From assembly GCF_002263515.1 (NCBI RefSeq), contig NZ_CP022752.1, positions 2,728,001 to 2,792,000 on the forward strand: a DNA stretch of 64,000 bases. The letters run 5' to 3'. The DNA is from Actinopolyspora erythraea. Lineage in GTDB: Bacteria; Actinomycetota; Actinomycetes; Mycobacteriales; Pseudonocardiaceae. Shown here one piece after another: positions 6,310 through 10,582 of the stretch. Below the pieces are notes generated by a model. That model was not told the origin of the DNA. It did no database searches and was given only the letters and a program-made list of their open reading frames with translations. The position numbers and the translations under genes are program-made. The first letter of the stretch is position 1, and each line of letters starts with the position of its first letter.

Positions 6310-6564
6310 ACGATGTTTAACGGATTCGGCGTGGCGAGTTGCGTGTTTCCGGCTCCGGTCCCGGAGGTACTGGGGATTCCTCTCGCACCGCCCGGACCCG
6401 CTTGTGCCCGAGCGGGCGGAGAGTTCAGGCGGAACGAGCCCGTTTTCCGGGAACTTTCCGCTGAAACCACGAAATCCGTGAGACCTCCACCGACATGCCT
6501 CGCCGGTGCTTCGGCGACGAGCCACTGGACCACCCGAAGTGGACCTACCGTGAACCCCCTTCCT

Positions 6565-6588
6565 GTCATATTGACATTAATGTACGAT
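6565..6588 (+). promoter_or_regulatory. probable leaderless promoter with overlapping palindromes before the NrtR-like operon
   Basis: Two inverted repeats overlap: GTCATATTGAC (6565-6575) and the perfect palindrome ACATTAATGT (6574-6583). A -10-like TACGAT at 6583-6588 would place transcription start at about the ATG at 6597, and no Shine-Dalgarno is present, so the mRNA is probably leaderless. Binding to the palindromes would block the -10, which fits autoregulation by the encoded regulator. This is inferred from position only. Confidence 0.45.
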
Positions 6589-6596
6589 CTCCCACC

Positions 6597-7328
6597 ATGA
6601 GTGACGAAGCGTGGTCACCTCCGGCCGTACTGCTAGCGGTTGATCTCGTCATCCTGACGTTGCGGGACTCACGGCTGTCCGTACTGCTCGTGGAACGCGG
6701 CATCGAGCCGCACCAGGGTGATCCGGCTTTACCGGGTGGGTTTCTCCAACACTCCTGTGAGGACCTCCGGGCTGCCGCTATTCGCGAGTTGAACGAAGAA
6801 GCGGCCCTCGACGCATCGAGACTCCACCTGGAGCAGTTGGGCACGTACGGGACTCCCGACCGCGACCCAAGAGGACGGGTCGTATCCGTGGCGTATCTGG
6901 TGATCGCTCCCGCCCTTCCCGAACCGATCGCGGGAACCGACGCGGCAGATGCGTCCTGGACACCGGTCGAGGAAATCCTGTCCGGAGATCGAAGGCTGGC
7001 CTTCGACCACGAAGAGATCGTCACCGACGGAGTCGAGCGCGCGCGGAACAAGTTGGAGCACTCGCCACTCGCCACCGCGTTCTGCGACAAGACGTTCACG
7101 ATCTCGCAACTACAACAAGTCTACGAAGCGGTTTGGGGGGTCGAGCTCGATCCCCGCAATTTCTACCGCAAGGTCCAGGCCGTGCCCGGCTTCATCGTCT
7201 CCGCCGGGACCGAACGCAGGAGCACGCGGGGACGCCCCGCCCGACTGTTCCGGGCCGGATCGCGAACCACGCTACATCCACCACTGGTAAGGCCCGACCC
7301 GCCGAATCCGAAAGAGGAGGAGAGATGA
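6597..7328 (+). CDS. NrtR-like Nudix-fold/winged-helix transcriptional regulator
   Basis: A 243-residue protein. Residues 8-145 form a Nudix fold (LLVERGIEPHQGDPALPGGF). The Nudix box is degenerate: the Gly-to-Glu spacing is six instead of five and the last Gly is Ala (RELNEEAAL), as in NrtR proteins that sense ADP-ribose without hydrolysing it. Residues 150-225 are the winged-helix domain, with QLQQVYEAVWG and FYRKVQ typical of NrtR. The ATG at 6597 is chosen because homology starts there; a longer frame upstream is not needed. Its stop overlaps the next ATG (ATGA), so it is coupled to the nucleosidase. ADP-ribose or a related NAD metabolite is the likely ligand by family. Confidence 0.85.
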   Translation: MSDEAWSPPAVLLAVDLVILTLRDSRLSVLLVERGIEPHQGDPALPGGFLQHSCEDLRAAAIRELNEEAALDASRLHLEQLGTYGTPDRDPRGRVVSVAYLVIAPALPEPIAGTDAADASWTPVEEILSGDRRLAFDHEEIVTDGVERARNKLEHSPLATAFCDKTFTISQLQQVYEAVWGVELDPRNFYRKVQAVPGFIVSAGTERRSTRGRPARLFRAGSRTTLHPPLVRPDPPNPKEEER

Positions 7329-8476
7329 CCGAGAACCGGGTGGTGATACTCACCGCTCTCAATCGTGAGTACACCGCCGTTCGCCGCAGGTTGAACGATC
7401 CGCGTGTATACCGCCACGAACGGGGAACCCGCTTCGAACTGGGTTCACTGTCCGGCACGAACTGCCAGATCGCTCTCGGTTTGGCCGACAAGGGGAACCA
7501 TCCCGCCGCGGTACTCGCGGAACGTGCGATTCAGCAGTTCTCACCAGCGGCGGTCCTGTTCGTAGGAGTTGCGGGGGCCCTGCGAGACACCACTCCACTG
7601 GGTGATGTCGTGATGGCGACACACGTGTACGCCTACCACGGCGGCACCAGCGAGGACGACGGACTCAAGGCACGCCCCCGGGTATGGGAAGCACCTCACG
7701 AGATCGTCCAGATCGCCGCTCACCTCGCCCGTACCGAGGAATGGCGGGAAGAGAAGTCAGCCGACGCGGGGGAACCGACTGTCCACTTCGGTGCCATCGC
7801 CGCCGGTGAAGTGGTGCAGAACTCCAGTATCTCCGGTGAGGCGAGATGGATCCGCGACCACTACAACGACGCACTCGCCATCGAGATGGAAGCGGCCGGT
7901 GTGGCCCAAGCCGGTCACCTGAACAGCTCGCGAGTAGCAGTCGTGCGCGGCATCAGCGACAGAGCCGACGGGACCAAGACCAGTAGCGAGGACAGCACCT
8001 GGCAACCGCGAGCCGCTGCGAACGCGGCGGCGTTCGCCTGCAAGCTCGCCGAGGAACTGAGCACGGAACAGGAGCACGCCGAGATGAACCAGCACTCGGA
8101 GCCGCAGCGGGGCACCGTCGTTCACAACTCCGCCCACCGAAGCCAGGTCGGCATCCAGGCCGCGCACGTGACCAACAGCACCGTTCGGATGAACACCGGT
8201 CCGCAGGAGTCCGGCACCACCGACCTCGCGGAAGAACTGGCCGCTTTCCGCGACCACCTCAGGCAGGAACGTTCGAGCGGCAACATCGACAAGGGGACCT
8301 ACGAGGCGGTTCAGAGCGAACTCGAGATCGCGGGCAAGGCACTGGAGAGCGAACAGCGGGAAGACAGGGGCACGGTGGTGCTGGCCCTCAAGAAGGTGAG
8401 CGGACTCATCGGCGACGTCACCAGCCTGGCAACACGGATCGCGACCCTGATCACTGCGGCGAACGGACTGTCATGA
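7325..8476 (+). CDS. MTAN-type nucleosidase with amyloid-like motif and helical tail
   Basis: A 383-residue protein. Residues 1-240 are a PNP/UDP-phosphorylase-fold nucleosidase. The MTA/SAH nucleosidase catalytic set appears intact: Glu15 (TALNREYTAV), Met188-Glu189 (IEMEAAG) and Asp212 (RGISD). A linker follows, with VGIQAAHVTNSTVRM at residues 275-289, which matches a motif at the N-terminus of the next gene product. Residues 300-383 are helical and amphipathic. PNP-fold domains are known effectors or signal-processing domains in bacterial conflict systems, and this one probably cleaves an N-glycosidic bond in a nucleoside or nucleotide. It overlaps both neighbours by ATGA, so the three form one operon. 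Confidence 0.8.
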   Translation: MTENRVVILTALNREYTAVRRRLNDPRVYRHERGTRFELGSLSGTNCQIALGLADKGNHPAAVLAERAIQQFSPAAVLFVGVAGALRDTTPLGDVVMATHVYAYHGGTSEDDGLKARPRVWEAPHEIVQIAAHLARTEEWREEKSADAGEPTVHFGAIAAGEVVQNSSISGEARWIRDHYNDALAIEMEAAGVAQAGHLNSSRVAVVRGISDRADGTKTSSEDSTWQPRAAANAAAFACKLAEELSTEQEHAEMNQHSEPQRGTVVHNSAHRSQVGIQAAHVTNSTVRMNTGPQESGTTDLAEELAAFRDHLRQERSSGNIDKGTYEAVQSELEIAGKALESEQREDRGTVVLALKKVSGLIGDVTSLATRIATLITAANGLS

Positions 8477-10458
8477 GCGAACACACGAACCACACCACGA
8501 ACATCGTGAAGGAAAATGGCAAGATTGGAGCCCAAGCCGGCGAAATAAAAAATTCAAACATAATCATGAATGATTATGCCGAATACTCCCCGGAAGAAAA
8601 ATATGAAGCCGCCGAGAAACTCCTAAAAGAAGGCGTCCCCAGAAAGGCCCGAGATCTGATCGACGACGCCATCTCCAAGGGGCACGACGGCGCCAGAGTA
8701 CGGTTCCATCGTGTGCTGGCGATCCTGAGCAAGCGCTCGTACCGGGACCTCACCGCCGAGGACCGGGAGCAGATGAGACTCAGCACGAAATCACCGCACG
8801 AGCACACAGACGACAGCTGGAGCGGTGCGCTGGACGCGATACGCGAACTGTTCGAACACTTCGAGAACCCCGATATCAGCACGAGACACACCGACAAGAA
8901 ACTGAGAGATCTGCCGTCGCAGCAGCACGAAAAGATCATGCGGCATCTCGATCTCTTCATCACCAGCGAACTGAAAGACGTTCTGTGGACCGAAACAAGC
9001 GATGAAGCACGAGAGGGCCGATTCAGCGGTGACCGCAGTAATCGAGTGTGGGCCTACTTTCAACCCGACCCCCTGGACGCACGGGTCAGGCACCCCGCCG
9101 AAGATCCCCTTCTGCCGTACGACCGCCGATGGGCGATAGTCACTTCCTGCACCGGCACGGCCGCTGTCGGCTACCTGGGATGGCTGGTGCTGACTCATGC
9201 GACGGTGTTGCCGGTACTCGCCTACCTGGCCATGCTGGCTTTCGGCTACGTGGCAAGCAGGAACGGATTCGAGTGGCACTACCGGACATCACGTTTGAAA
9301 CTCAAGGAGGGCGATTTTTTCCGGTCGACATCGGTCACCGGCTCCGATCCGGACGGGTTCGCCAACCAGGTCGATCGTTCTTTCTCCCACTATTTCCACA
9401 AGTACTGCCCCGAGAATACGAACCGCGAGAAGTGGCTCGCCGAAACCGCCGGGATTCGCGCCACACTCCGCGACGAGATCGTCGAACTCTATCGGGAAAG
9501 CCGAACCGGCGTCGGTCGCGTGAACTGGTTGATCCGATACCTGACCTCCGACGTCAAGCAGCGCTGGCGAGCAGGAACGCTGCTGCGACACCGTGAGCGG
9601 TATCGGGTGGCCACGTCCACGAAGGTGCGGTTCTCACTGGCTCTGGCAGCCCTGGTTCCAACCACGCTGATCGTGCTCGTCACCACCGTGACGACAAGTG
9701 TCCTCCCCGCCGCGCTCGCCGCGCTCGTCGCCGTGCCCAGTACGCGAGACGCCGTGAAGCGCTGGCTGCGCGTCGCGGTGGAACGCCGTCGGTTCGAGGA
9801 GGACCAGCGAGAAAGCGACCGTCTCCACCAGGAACGACACGAGGCGTACCTCCGCTGGAGGCGGAAGCTGGAGACCACGTGCCCGTCGGAAATCGAGATG
9901 GAGTACTGGCTACACTGCGACAAAGTGATCATGCTCGACGACGCCCTGCGTCATTACAGGTTGGCATGGCGTGACATCATAACTCACGCTTTCCTGCAAA
10001 CTCCCACTTCGGACGCCAAGCGAAAGCGCCGAGGTGGCCCGCTGCGCTTCTCGAAATACGATGTTAGATTGTTTCTGATCACCCGAGACGGTGTGCGCGA
10101 GACAAACACGACGCTGGATTTCGAGCAGGGATTGTTCGGCAGGGCACAACGTGGAAACTTCCGATTCGATGCGATTTCCTCCACCGACATCATCCCGTCC
10201 AGCGGTCTCGGTTACACCCTGAAGATAACCCTGATCAATGGCCCTACCAGGGAAGTGAACGTCAAGGAACCCGACCAGGAGGCATCGACCACCAATCCCA
10301 ACGACACCTCCGAGCGACTGTCCGAAATCGATCTCGACGCGGCGGGGTTCACGCACACCCGACACGTCCTCGAAGGGATCGCGGCGGAAGGAAAGGGGTG
10401 GATCGAACGCGATCCGGTTACCAGCGACGTCGGCTTCACTTCCAGCACCGACGAGTGA
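8473..10458 (+). CDS. four-TM membrane protein with N-terminal amyloid-like motif
   Basis: A 661-residue protein I cannot assign to a named family. Residues 18-32 (IGAQAGEIKNSNIIM) match the motif in the upstream nucleosidase. Residues 36-200 are helical and charged, TPR-like in texture. A hydrophobic hairpin at 220-262 and another at 385-423 predict four membrane segments. The last 240 residues are soluble, with a beta-rich part. The bases coding the motif (about 8520-8640) are strikingly AT-rich against high-GC neighbours. The hairpins recall two-TM effector domains such as SLATT, but I see no diagnostic motif. A membrane-acting partner or effector of the nucleosidase is an inference. Confidence 0.75.
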   Translation: MSEHTNHTTNIVKENGKIGAQAGEIKNSNIIMNDYAEYSPEEKYEAAEKLLKEGVPRKARDLIDDAISKGHDGARVRFHRVLAILSKRSYRDLTAEDREQMRLSTKSPHEHTDDSWSGALDAIRELFEHFENPDISTRHTDKKLRDLPSQQHEKIMRHLDLFITSELKDVLWTETSDEAREGRFSGDRSNRVWAYFQPDPLDARVRHPAEDPLLPYDRRWAIVTSCTGTAAVGYLGWLVLTHATVLPVLAYLAMLAFGYVASRNGFEWHYRTSRLKLKEGDFFRSTSVTGSDPDGFANQVDRSFSHYFHKYCPENTNREKWLAETAGIRATLRDEIVELYRESRTGVGRVNWLIRYLTSDVKQRWRAGTLLRHRERYRVATSTKVRFSLALAALVPTTLIVLVTTVTTSVLPAALAALVAVPSTRDAVKRWLRVAVERRRFEEDQRESDRLHQERHEAYLRWRRKLETTCPSEIEMEYWLHCDKVIMLDDALRHYRLAWRDIITHAFLQTPTSDAKRKRRGGPLRFSKYDVRLFLITRDGVRETNTTLDFEQGLFGRAQRGNFRFDAISSTDIIPSSGLGYTLKITLINGPTREVNVKEPDQEASTTNPNDTSERLSEIDLDAAGFTHTRHVLEGIAAEGKGWIERDPVTSDVGFTSSTDE

Positions 10459-10508
10459 CGCTGCAGGCTCGCGCCGCGCAGCCTGGGGTCATGCGGTGAA
10501 ATCGATCA

Positions 10509-10530
10509 GGCGCCGAGATCACTCGGCGCC
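10509..10530. terminator. terminator hairpin between convergent operons
   Basis: GGCGCCGAG (10509-10517) and CTCGGCGCC (10522-10530) form a perfect 9-bp stem with a 4-base loop, between the ends of the NrtR-nucleosidase operon and znuB. TTCG follows on the plus strand. It probably serves both directions. Confidence 0.7.
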
Positions 10531-10582
10531 TTCGTCGGGTACGATCAACGGCCCTCTCCTTCCAACCATTGAACTCTCCGGA

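Follow-up and report, generated by a model that had tools for sequence, protein, structure and literature searches.

A three-gene operon in the genome of Actinopolyspora erythraea encodes an NrtR-type repressor, a nucleosidase of the PNP/MTAN fold and a membrane protein, and the last two of these proteins share a specific RHIM-like motif. The operon lies on the forward strand of the window, by which is meant the whole analysed stretch of 64,000 nt (assembly GCF_002263515.1, contig NZ_CP022752.1, positions 2,728,001-2,792,000; genome size 5.24 Mb), and its genes occupy window positions 6597-7328, 7325-8476 and 8473-10458. In the reading put forward here for this and certain other soil actinobacteria, to which we give an even chance, the nucleosidase and the membrane protein would be released by the repressor as a pair, assemble with each other by means of an amyloid-like motif and bring the cell to a halt, no NLR being involved. 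An initial annotation of the same DNA had described the three genes as joined by two ATGA overlaps, and both were recovered as start/stop overlaps at 7325-7328 and 8473-8476. Four features are additional to that account: the motif common to the second and third proteins, the helical module at the C-terminus of the second, the palindrome spanning 6560-6580, and another copy of the trio in the genome.

The motif, with the core VGIQA..V..STV, is found in the nucleosidase (hereafter PNP) at residues 264-291 (positions 8114-8197, plus strand), at the junction between the catalytic domain and the helical module, and at the N-terminus of the membrane protein at residues 6-35 (positions 8488-8577, plus strand). 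It forms a low-entropy island within otherwise variable sequence and is conserved among the loci of the membrane protein, the core being VGIMA in most Streptomyces PNPs. Across 80 loci, a profile built from the membrane side matched PNP open reading frames (ORFs) in 46 rows and the PNP-side profile matched membrane ORFs in 57 rows, with a best E of 2.6e-8 in both directions, and neither the other ORFs of these loci nor shuffled ORFs gave any match at E≤0.05. Run against all 5.24 Mb of the genome, the combined profile found nothing at E≤10 other than both PNPs and both membrane proteins. Among 22 relatives, chosen for having a match to the membrane protein, 35 motif matches were obtained in 18 genomes, 33 of them at the trio and two in one repeat protein. 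This protein of 506 amino acids (aa), with two copies of VGIQAGVV (locus L172, 4745-6265, minus strand), was the only carrier outside the trio in the 22 relatives; its neighbour is an 888 aa gene which we take to resemble FtsK/Tra. An extra motif carrier in genome G142 was considered as a possible NLR and rejected, as it is the repeat protein. In several divergent lineages the motif is altered in both partners, with a VGQQ-type core in most of a distant class of loci and AGIQG in L155. Motif scores in 60 non-redundant loci were 50.9 for cognate and 35.6 for non-cognate partners, and in a sister-swap test of 28 pairs, which kept the broken loci L087 and L114, swapping lowered the score in 17, raised it in nine and left two tied (Wilcoxon p 0.032).

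Conservation beyond this strain, on which the initial annotation had made its proposal depend, was found in other actinomycetes down to 24-31% identity. Species genomes were scanned with an alignment of protein 3, and of the 141 relatives that were confirmed the best 80 were kept as loci. In 77 of these 80 the NrtR, PNP and membrane protein follow in the same order on one strand. A broken gene is present in three of the 77 (L072, L087 and L114), and the three remaining loci comprise two short contigs (L079 and L091) and L111, which is without NrtR and contains only a PNP fragment. Start/stop overlap joins the PNP and membrane genes in 75/77 loci, compared with 37/77 for NrtR and PNP, and the pair is therefore regarded as the core and NrtR as an attached switch. 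Matches of the distant class (24-31% identity) occur in 17 genomes, and the loci of 11 of them were fetched; all 11 contain NrtR, PNP and membrane genes, with a divergent NrtR in eight. Five distant-class loci (L163, L164, L166, L167 and L168) also encode a Nudix hydrolase whose box is canonical, a second NrtR is present in L164, L166 and L168, and L164 and L166 carry two tandem membrane proteins of the trio family. The membrane gene of L159/L160 (G129:C1:4317310-4337708) is split, its two parts lying about 18 kb from each other as though a large insertion had separated them. L173 is a decayed trio, in which a long NrtR frame is accompanied by fragments of the PNP and membrane genes spread over several frames. 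The overall distribution is patchy, with a match in 41/150 genomes of the family scan at E≤0.001 and in 2/396 of a phylum sample at E≤1e-20, own genome included in each.

The second trio of A. erythraea (L005 1-14001, G000:C1:2962000-2976000) lies on the minus strand, and its membrane protein is 45-46% identical to that of the window. It is flanked by genes for JetA3 (Wadjet-type; E 2.3e-87) and Cas3e (E 8.1e-163). Recent duplication was rejected as the origin of the two copies because they sit on different branches, the window copy grouping with A. xinjiangensis (97%) and the second copy with A. biskrensis (80%) and Halosaccharopolyspora. In G097, a genome of the same genus, the sequences on either side of the window trio are collinear (84% and 81% identity), with 1.9 kb of unrelated sequence in place of the trio. 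We read the trio as a cassette that is acquired or lost whole. The genes found in its place in G097 (L191 7826-9743) are ones which we take to resemble that of an ECF sigma factor (SigJ-like) and that of a carboxymuconolactone decarboxylase. In G134, also of this genus, one flank only was matched.

The first protein (243 aa, 6597-7328, plus strand) contains both of the domains that define NrtR, a Nudix domain (PF00293, E 4.5e-15) and the NrtR_WHD winged helix (PF21906, E 8.3e-16), and its nearest relative in the PDB is 3gz5 (E 7.7e-29). The initial annotation had called the Nudix domain degenerate, which is true of the loop, GX6E in place of GX5E, and of the final Gly, replaced by Ala (Gly in 5/79 rows), but not of E55, R63, E64, E67 and E68, which are kept in 79/79 rows. 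Because these residues are kept, the box is less degraded than that published for NrtR of M. smegmatis (PMC6800001; excerpts of this and of all other cited papers are the basis of the statements made here). Directly 5' of the NrtR start, at 6560-6580 on the plus strand, lies an operator-like palindrome, TTCCTGTCA-TAT-TGACATTAA, a putative site of the kind expected of an NrtR at its own promoter. Across the family the palindrome has the form CTTCCTGTCA-N3-TGACAGGAAG, also written TTCCTGTCA-N3-TGACAGGAA, and a strict TGTC-N5-GACA was found upstream of NrtR in 54/79 operons, compared with none in each of ten shuffle rounds. In the other 25/79, mostly from Streptomyces and relatives, imperfect palindromes were judged to be present by eye. 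Across 5.24 Mb of genome the zero-mismatch palindrome is confined to the upstream regions of the two trio operons, and with up to two mismatches there were 16 genome matches, no excess over a reversed control (21). As regards control of NAD synthesis, the zero-mismatch sites were the ones mapped to genes, and all lay before trio operons. The apparent target of this NrtR is the PNP/membrane pair. A third NrtR in the genome (L185 1444-2160, minus strand), with the box RQLAEKVD as in mycobacterial NrtR, is probably the ordinary NAD regulator, and because this separate mycobacterial-type NrtR exists the trio regulator looks specialised. NrtR proteins sense ADP-ribose, and the dedicated palindrome would fit the suggestion of the initial annotation that a metabolite signal derepresses the enzyme.

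The second protein (383 aa, 7325-8476, plus strand) belongs to PF01048 (E 2.8e-32) and has the fold and the catalytic Glu/Glu/Asp of MTA/SAH nucleosidases (MTANs). The residues Glu15, Glu189 and Asp212, already named in the initial annotation, are retained in 79 (Glu15), 81 (Glu189) and 81 (Asp212) of 82 rows. The protein is matched by the PADLOC model "Effector PN-superfamily" (E 2.7e-20) and misses the curated MTAN equivalog cut-offs (98.7 bits against 169, and 56 against 73.8). A polar signature, YHGG.SED.....RP..W, is conserved in the family, with some variation in the distant class, and in alignment sits where MTANs carry another loop. We infer that the substrate may be a 5'-phosphorylated nucleotide rather than MTA. 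The PNP domains of other immune systems have been described as ATP-cleaving nucleosidases (PMC10197012, PMC12881547, PMC10952713). The C-terminal helical module (residues 298-383, positions 8216-8473, plus strand) was followed with residues 255-383 as query, and all 43 proteins found, among candidates limited to 0.55-1.75 of the length, bear PF01048, so that effector swapping on this module was rejected. Within the own genome, no protein other than both PNP copies matched at E<0.1, the third match having an E of 0.28. The PNPs of the distant class lack the module, to which they gave no profile match.

The third protein (661 aa, 8473-10458, plus strand) has no Pfam family at E≤0.1, and at least 142 proteins match it at E≤0.001, own copies included. 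In the structural model it reads as the motif followed by a predicted TPR-like helical region (residues 35-160, positions 8575-8952), two transmembrane (TM) hairpins (residues ~215-263, positions 9115-9261, and ~381-427, positions 9613-9753) and a predicted PH-like beta domain (residues ~500-600, positions 9970-10272), all on the plus strand. The two TM hairpins of the initial annotation thus reappear in the model, and hydropathy in eight family members placed one or two helices per hairpin above threshold, the window protein having only a single such helix in each. Foldseek gave no match at E≤0.001, either for the whole model against the PDB and BFVD or for the C-terminal domain alone against the PDB, and the best PDB sequence matches of the family (a designed protein, E 0.0014, and ribonucleotide reductase, E 0.016) were judged to be chance. 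Identity as a SLATT protein or holin was rejected for want of a convincing Pfam match. One relative, P0035, bears the source name "SMODS and SLOG-associating 2TM effector".

On these observations a mechanism can be proposed. The dedicated NrtR-type repressor would bind its private palindrome at its own promoter and keep the operon low, until a nucleotide metabolite, possibly ADP-ribose by analogy with NrtR, releases it. The operon would then produce the PNP-fold nucleosidase and a multi-pass membrane protein, which may recognise one another by their common RHIM-like motif, probably one of the beta-arch/amyloid kind. Co-assembly would concentrate the nucleosidase at the membrane and/or open the membrane protein, and the nucleotide pool would be hydrolysed and/or the membrane breached, leading to arrest or death of the cell. 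The whole could thus be an NLR-free analogue of an amyloid signalosome, resembling the necrosome of animals. The position and composition of the motif recall RHIM/BASS3 motifs. Amyloid-like aggregation was shown for peptides of this kind (PMC8086366), and the motif of a fungal PNP_UDP effector assembles into fibrils and has prion behaviour (PMC9815663).

Several points weigh against this mechanism. That the motif forms amyloid is a reasoned inference, and its resemblance to published peptides is weak: the archaeal BASS3-like peptide was equalled by 12/1000 shuffles with the distant-class profile and, with the two close-class profiles, by 37 (membrane side) and 345 (PNP side), and the Frankia BASS3 peptide by 59, 46 and 102, respectively. 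For the sigma peptide, between 75 and 217 of 1000 shuffles did as well, and neither the non-aggregating peptide nor PUASM outscored shuffles. Four of the 22 relatives gave no motif match, and the pair of L156 shows no recognisable common motif (score 17). As for coevolution of the partners, the unadjusted within-locus excess (0.545 against 0.462, p 0.0002) can reflect shared descent, and partial Mantel tests within the close class, on 77 rows after removal of L087, L114, L111, L072 and L079, were negative (r -0.05, p 0.76, and r 0.05, p 0.28 for non-redundant rows). Strong coevolution between the motifs was accordingly rejected, and for coevolution over and above common ancestry there is no more than mild support, from the sister-swap test. 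SLATT pore membership is not indicated either, the window protein having no match to the SLATT profile and one of 42 members touching SLATT_fungal (E 0.013). In addition, a receptor may lie elsewhere and act by means other than the motif. The commonest neighbour family, which we take to resemble an HTH-STAND NTPase, recurs, at most 10 kb from the trio, in six of 41 non-redundant loci (L047, L054, L059, L102, L104 and L106); no tie to the pair is drawn, because across the 80 loci the motif is confined to ORFs of the trio.

The initial annotation had proposed that the operon acts as in abortive infection. In the strict sense of that term, phage infection would raise the inducer or trigger the pair directly, and the pair would kill the cell. 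This is possible, with a minority of our confidence behind it. The PADLOC effector match, the position of the second copy beside JetA3 and Cas3e, the patchy and separately descended copies, and the degradation of (d)ATP by PNP effectors in CBASS and Detocs (PMC10952713) all point this way. The enrichment beside defence genes that the annotation had suggested looking for was, however, not found over 18 loci. PADLOC protein-family matches at E≤1e-20 numbered six among 140 neighbour proteins and six among 138 control proteins (140 of 215 non-trio neighbour genes at 18 loci, and 138 of 279 genes in 17 control regions, proteins above 900 aa being excluded from both). The trio is also rare on mobile elements, with one match in 72,556 plasmid records and none in 50,697 phage records. 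The window copy lies between genes which we take to resemble those of an MFS transporter and a zinc-type ABC transporter. Phage defence is possible but not favoured by genome context; of the interpretation first given, the conserved trio and a palindrome fitting derepression stand, and the link to defence islands does not.

The same lack of defence enrichment suits an explanation that we consider doubtful, in which the motif would be a docking peptide of the usual kind and not amyloid. The membrane protein would then serve as anchor for a nucleosidase active in nucleotide salvage or signal turnover, which would be induced by way of NrtR when NAD-derived nucleotides build up, and there would be no cell death. 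The MTA/SAH nucleosidase fold and triad, the Nudix-type regulator and the canonical-box Nudix hydrolases of five distant-class loci would be expected of such a role, but the patchy occurrence (41/150 and 2/396) and the unrelated genes between the same flanks in a same-genus genome would not. Nor does any gene family outside the trio recur in more than six of the 41 non-redundant loci, in which the gene caller recovered NrtR in 29 and PNP in 25; a fixed methionine-salvage context, which the initial annotation had held to count against its proposal, was rejected on this ground. Developmental cell death or mycelial nutrient recycling (lysis of substrate hyphae, autolysis) without phage would suit hosts in genera which we take to be mostly mycelial, among them Streptomyces, Saccharopolyspora, Amycolatopsis, Nocardiopsis and Streptosporangium. 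It would also suit the placing of amyloid signalling in filamentous bacteria by a review (PMC7889193), but the trio is too patchy for a core developmental step and we regard this as improbable.

Beyond the three genes, two GC-rich hairpins follow the operon on the plus strand (10464-10485 and 10508-10531) with a minimum free energy of -43.6 kcal/mol (z -2.4), which was equalled by 4/200 shuffles. The strong hairpin noted initially at the operon end is thus present as a pair; the hairpins are without a T-run and were not listed by the terminator scan. No tRNA or tmRNA gene was found in window positions 1-64000.

Should the proposed repressor-released pair co-assemble as suggested, it would answer a question listed as open in a review, namely whether signalling amyloids independent of NLRs exist in bacteria and fungi (PMC7889193), as regards bacteria outside NLR pathways. 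We rate at somewhat under an even chance the fuller claim of an NLR-independent bacterial signalling amyloid, in which nucleosidase and membrane protein form a RHIM-type heterofibril, a counterpart of the necrosome armed by a nucleotide-sensing repressor. Such a system would be compact, made up of an enzyme, a membrane protein and a pair of short peptides, and would tie a nucleotide-sensing regulator to nucleotide-destroying machinery of arrest or death.

No description of the trio or of the pair was found in the searchable literature, which excludes most subscription papers, and comparison can be made with systems that share individual parts. Among these are the BASS systems of an NLR and a Bell effector, which likewise have adjacent, often overlapping genes with one short motif, one copy of it N-terminal, a Gly/Gln core and actinomycete hosts (PMC7889193, PMC8086366, PMC12261475). 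Unlike these, the trio is without a motif-bearing NLR in its own genome and without an NTPase family in its three proteins; the partners are instead a nucleosidase, in which the motif is central, and a membrane protein that has predicted TPR-like and PH-like parts, the trio has its own NrtR and palindrome, and scores against published BASS/RHIM peptides are weak and mixed. In the fungal PNP_UDP/PUASM system, a PNP-fold domain is similarly followed by an amyloid motif common to the product of the neighbouring gene (PMC9815663). The fungal partner, however, is an NLR, and the motif sequence differs, the PUASM peptide scoring at the level of shuffles. With the PNP-fold immune nucleosidases Cap17 of CBASS and Detocs, protein 2 shares PF01048, conserved catalytic residues and the PADLOC effector match (E 2.7e-20), whereas the trio has no further partner family in more than six of 41 loci and adds the shared motif and the helical module. 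Nucleotide-cleaving PNPase or TIR domains beside a 2TM SLATT protein, proposed as a pore, are known from GTPase-centred conflict systems (PMC7159879), and the present pair differs from these in its common motif, its NrtR and the single SLATT match among 42 members. Finally, the regulator resembles NrtR/NdnR of NAD synthesis in its Nudix and NrtR_WHD domains and in a palindrome at its own promoter (PMC6800001). It differs in operator form, TTCCTGTCA-N3-TGACAGGAA in the trio family as opposed to GTTTTCGA-N7-TCGAAAAC in the mycobacterial NrtR (PMC6800001), and in its apparent target, which is the PNP/membrane pair.

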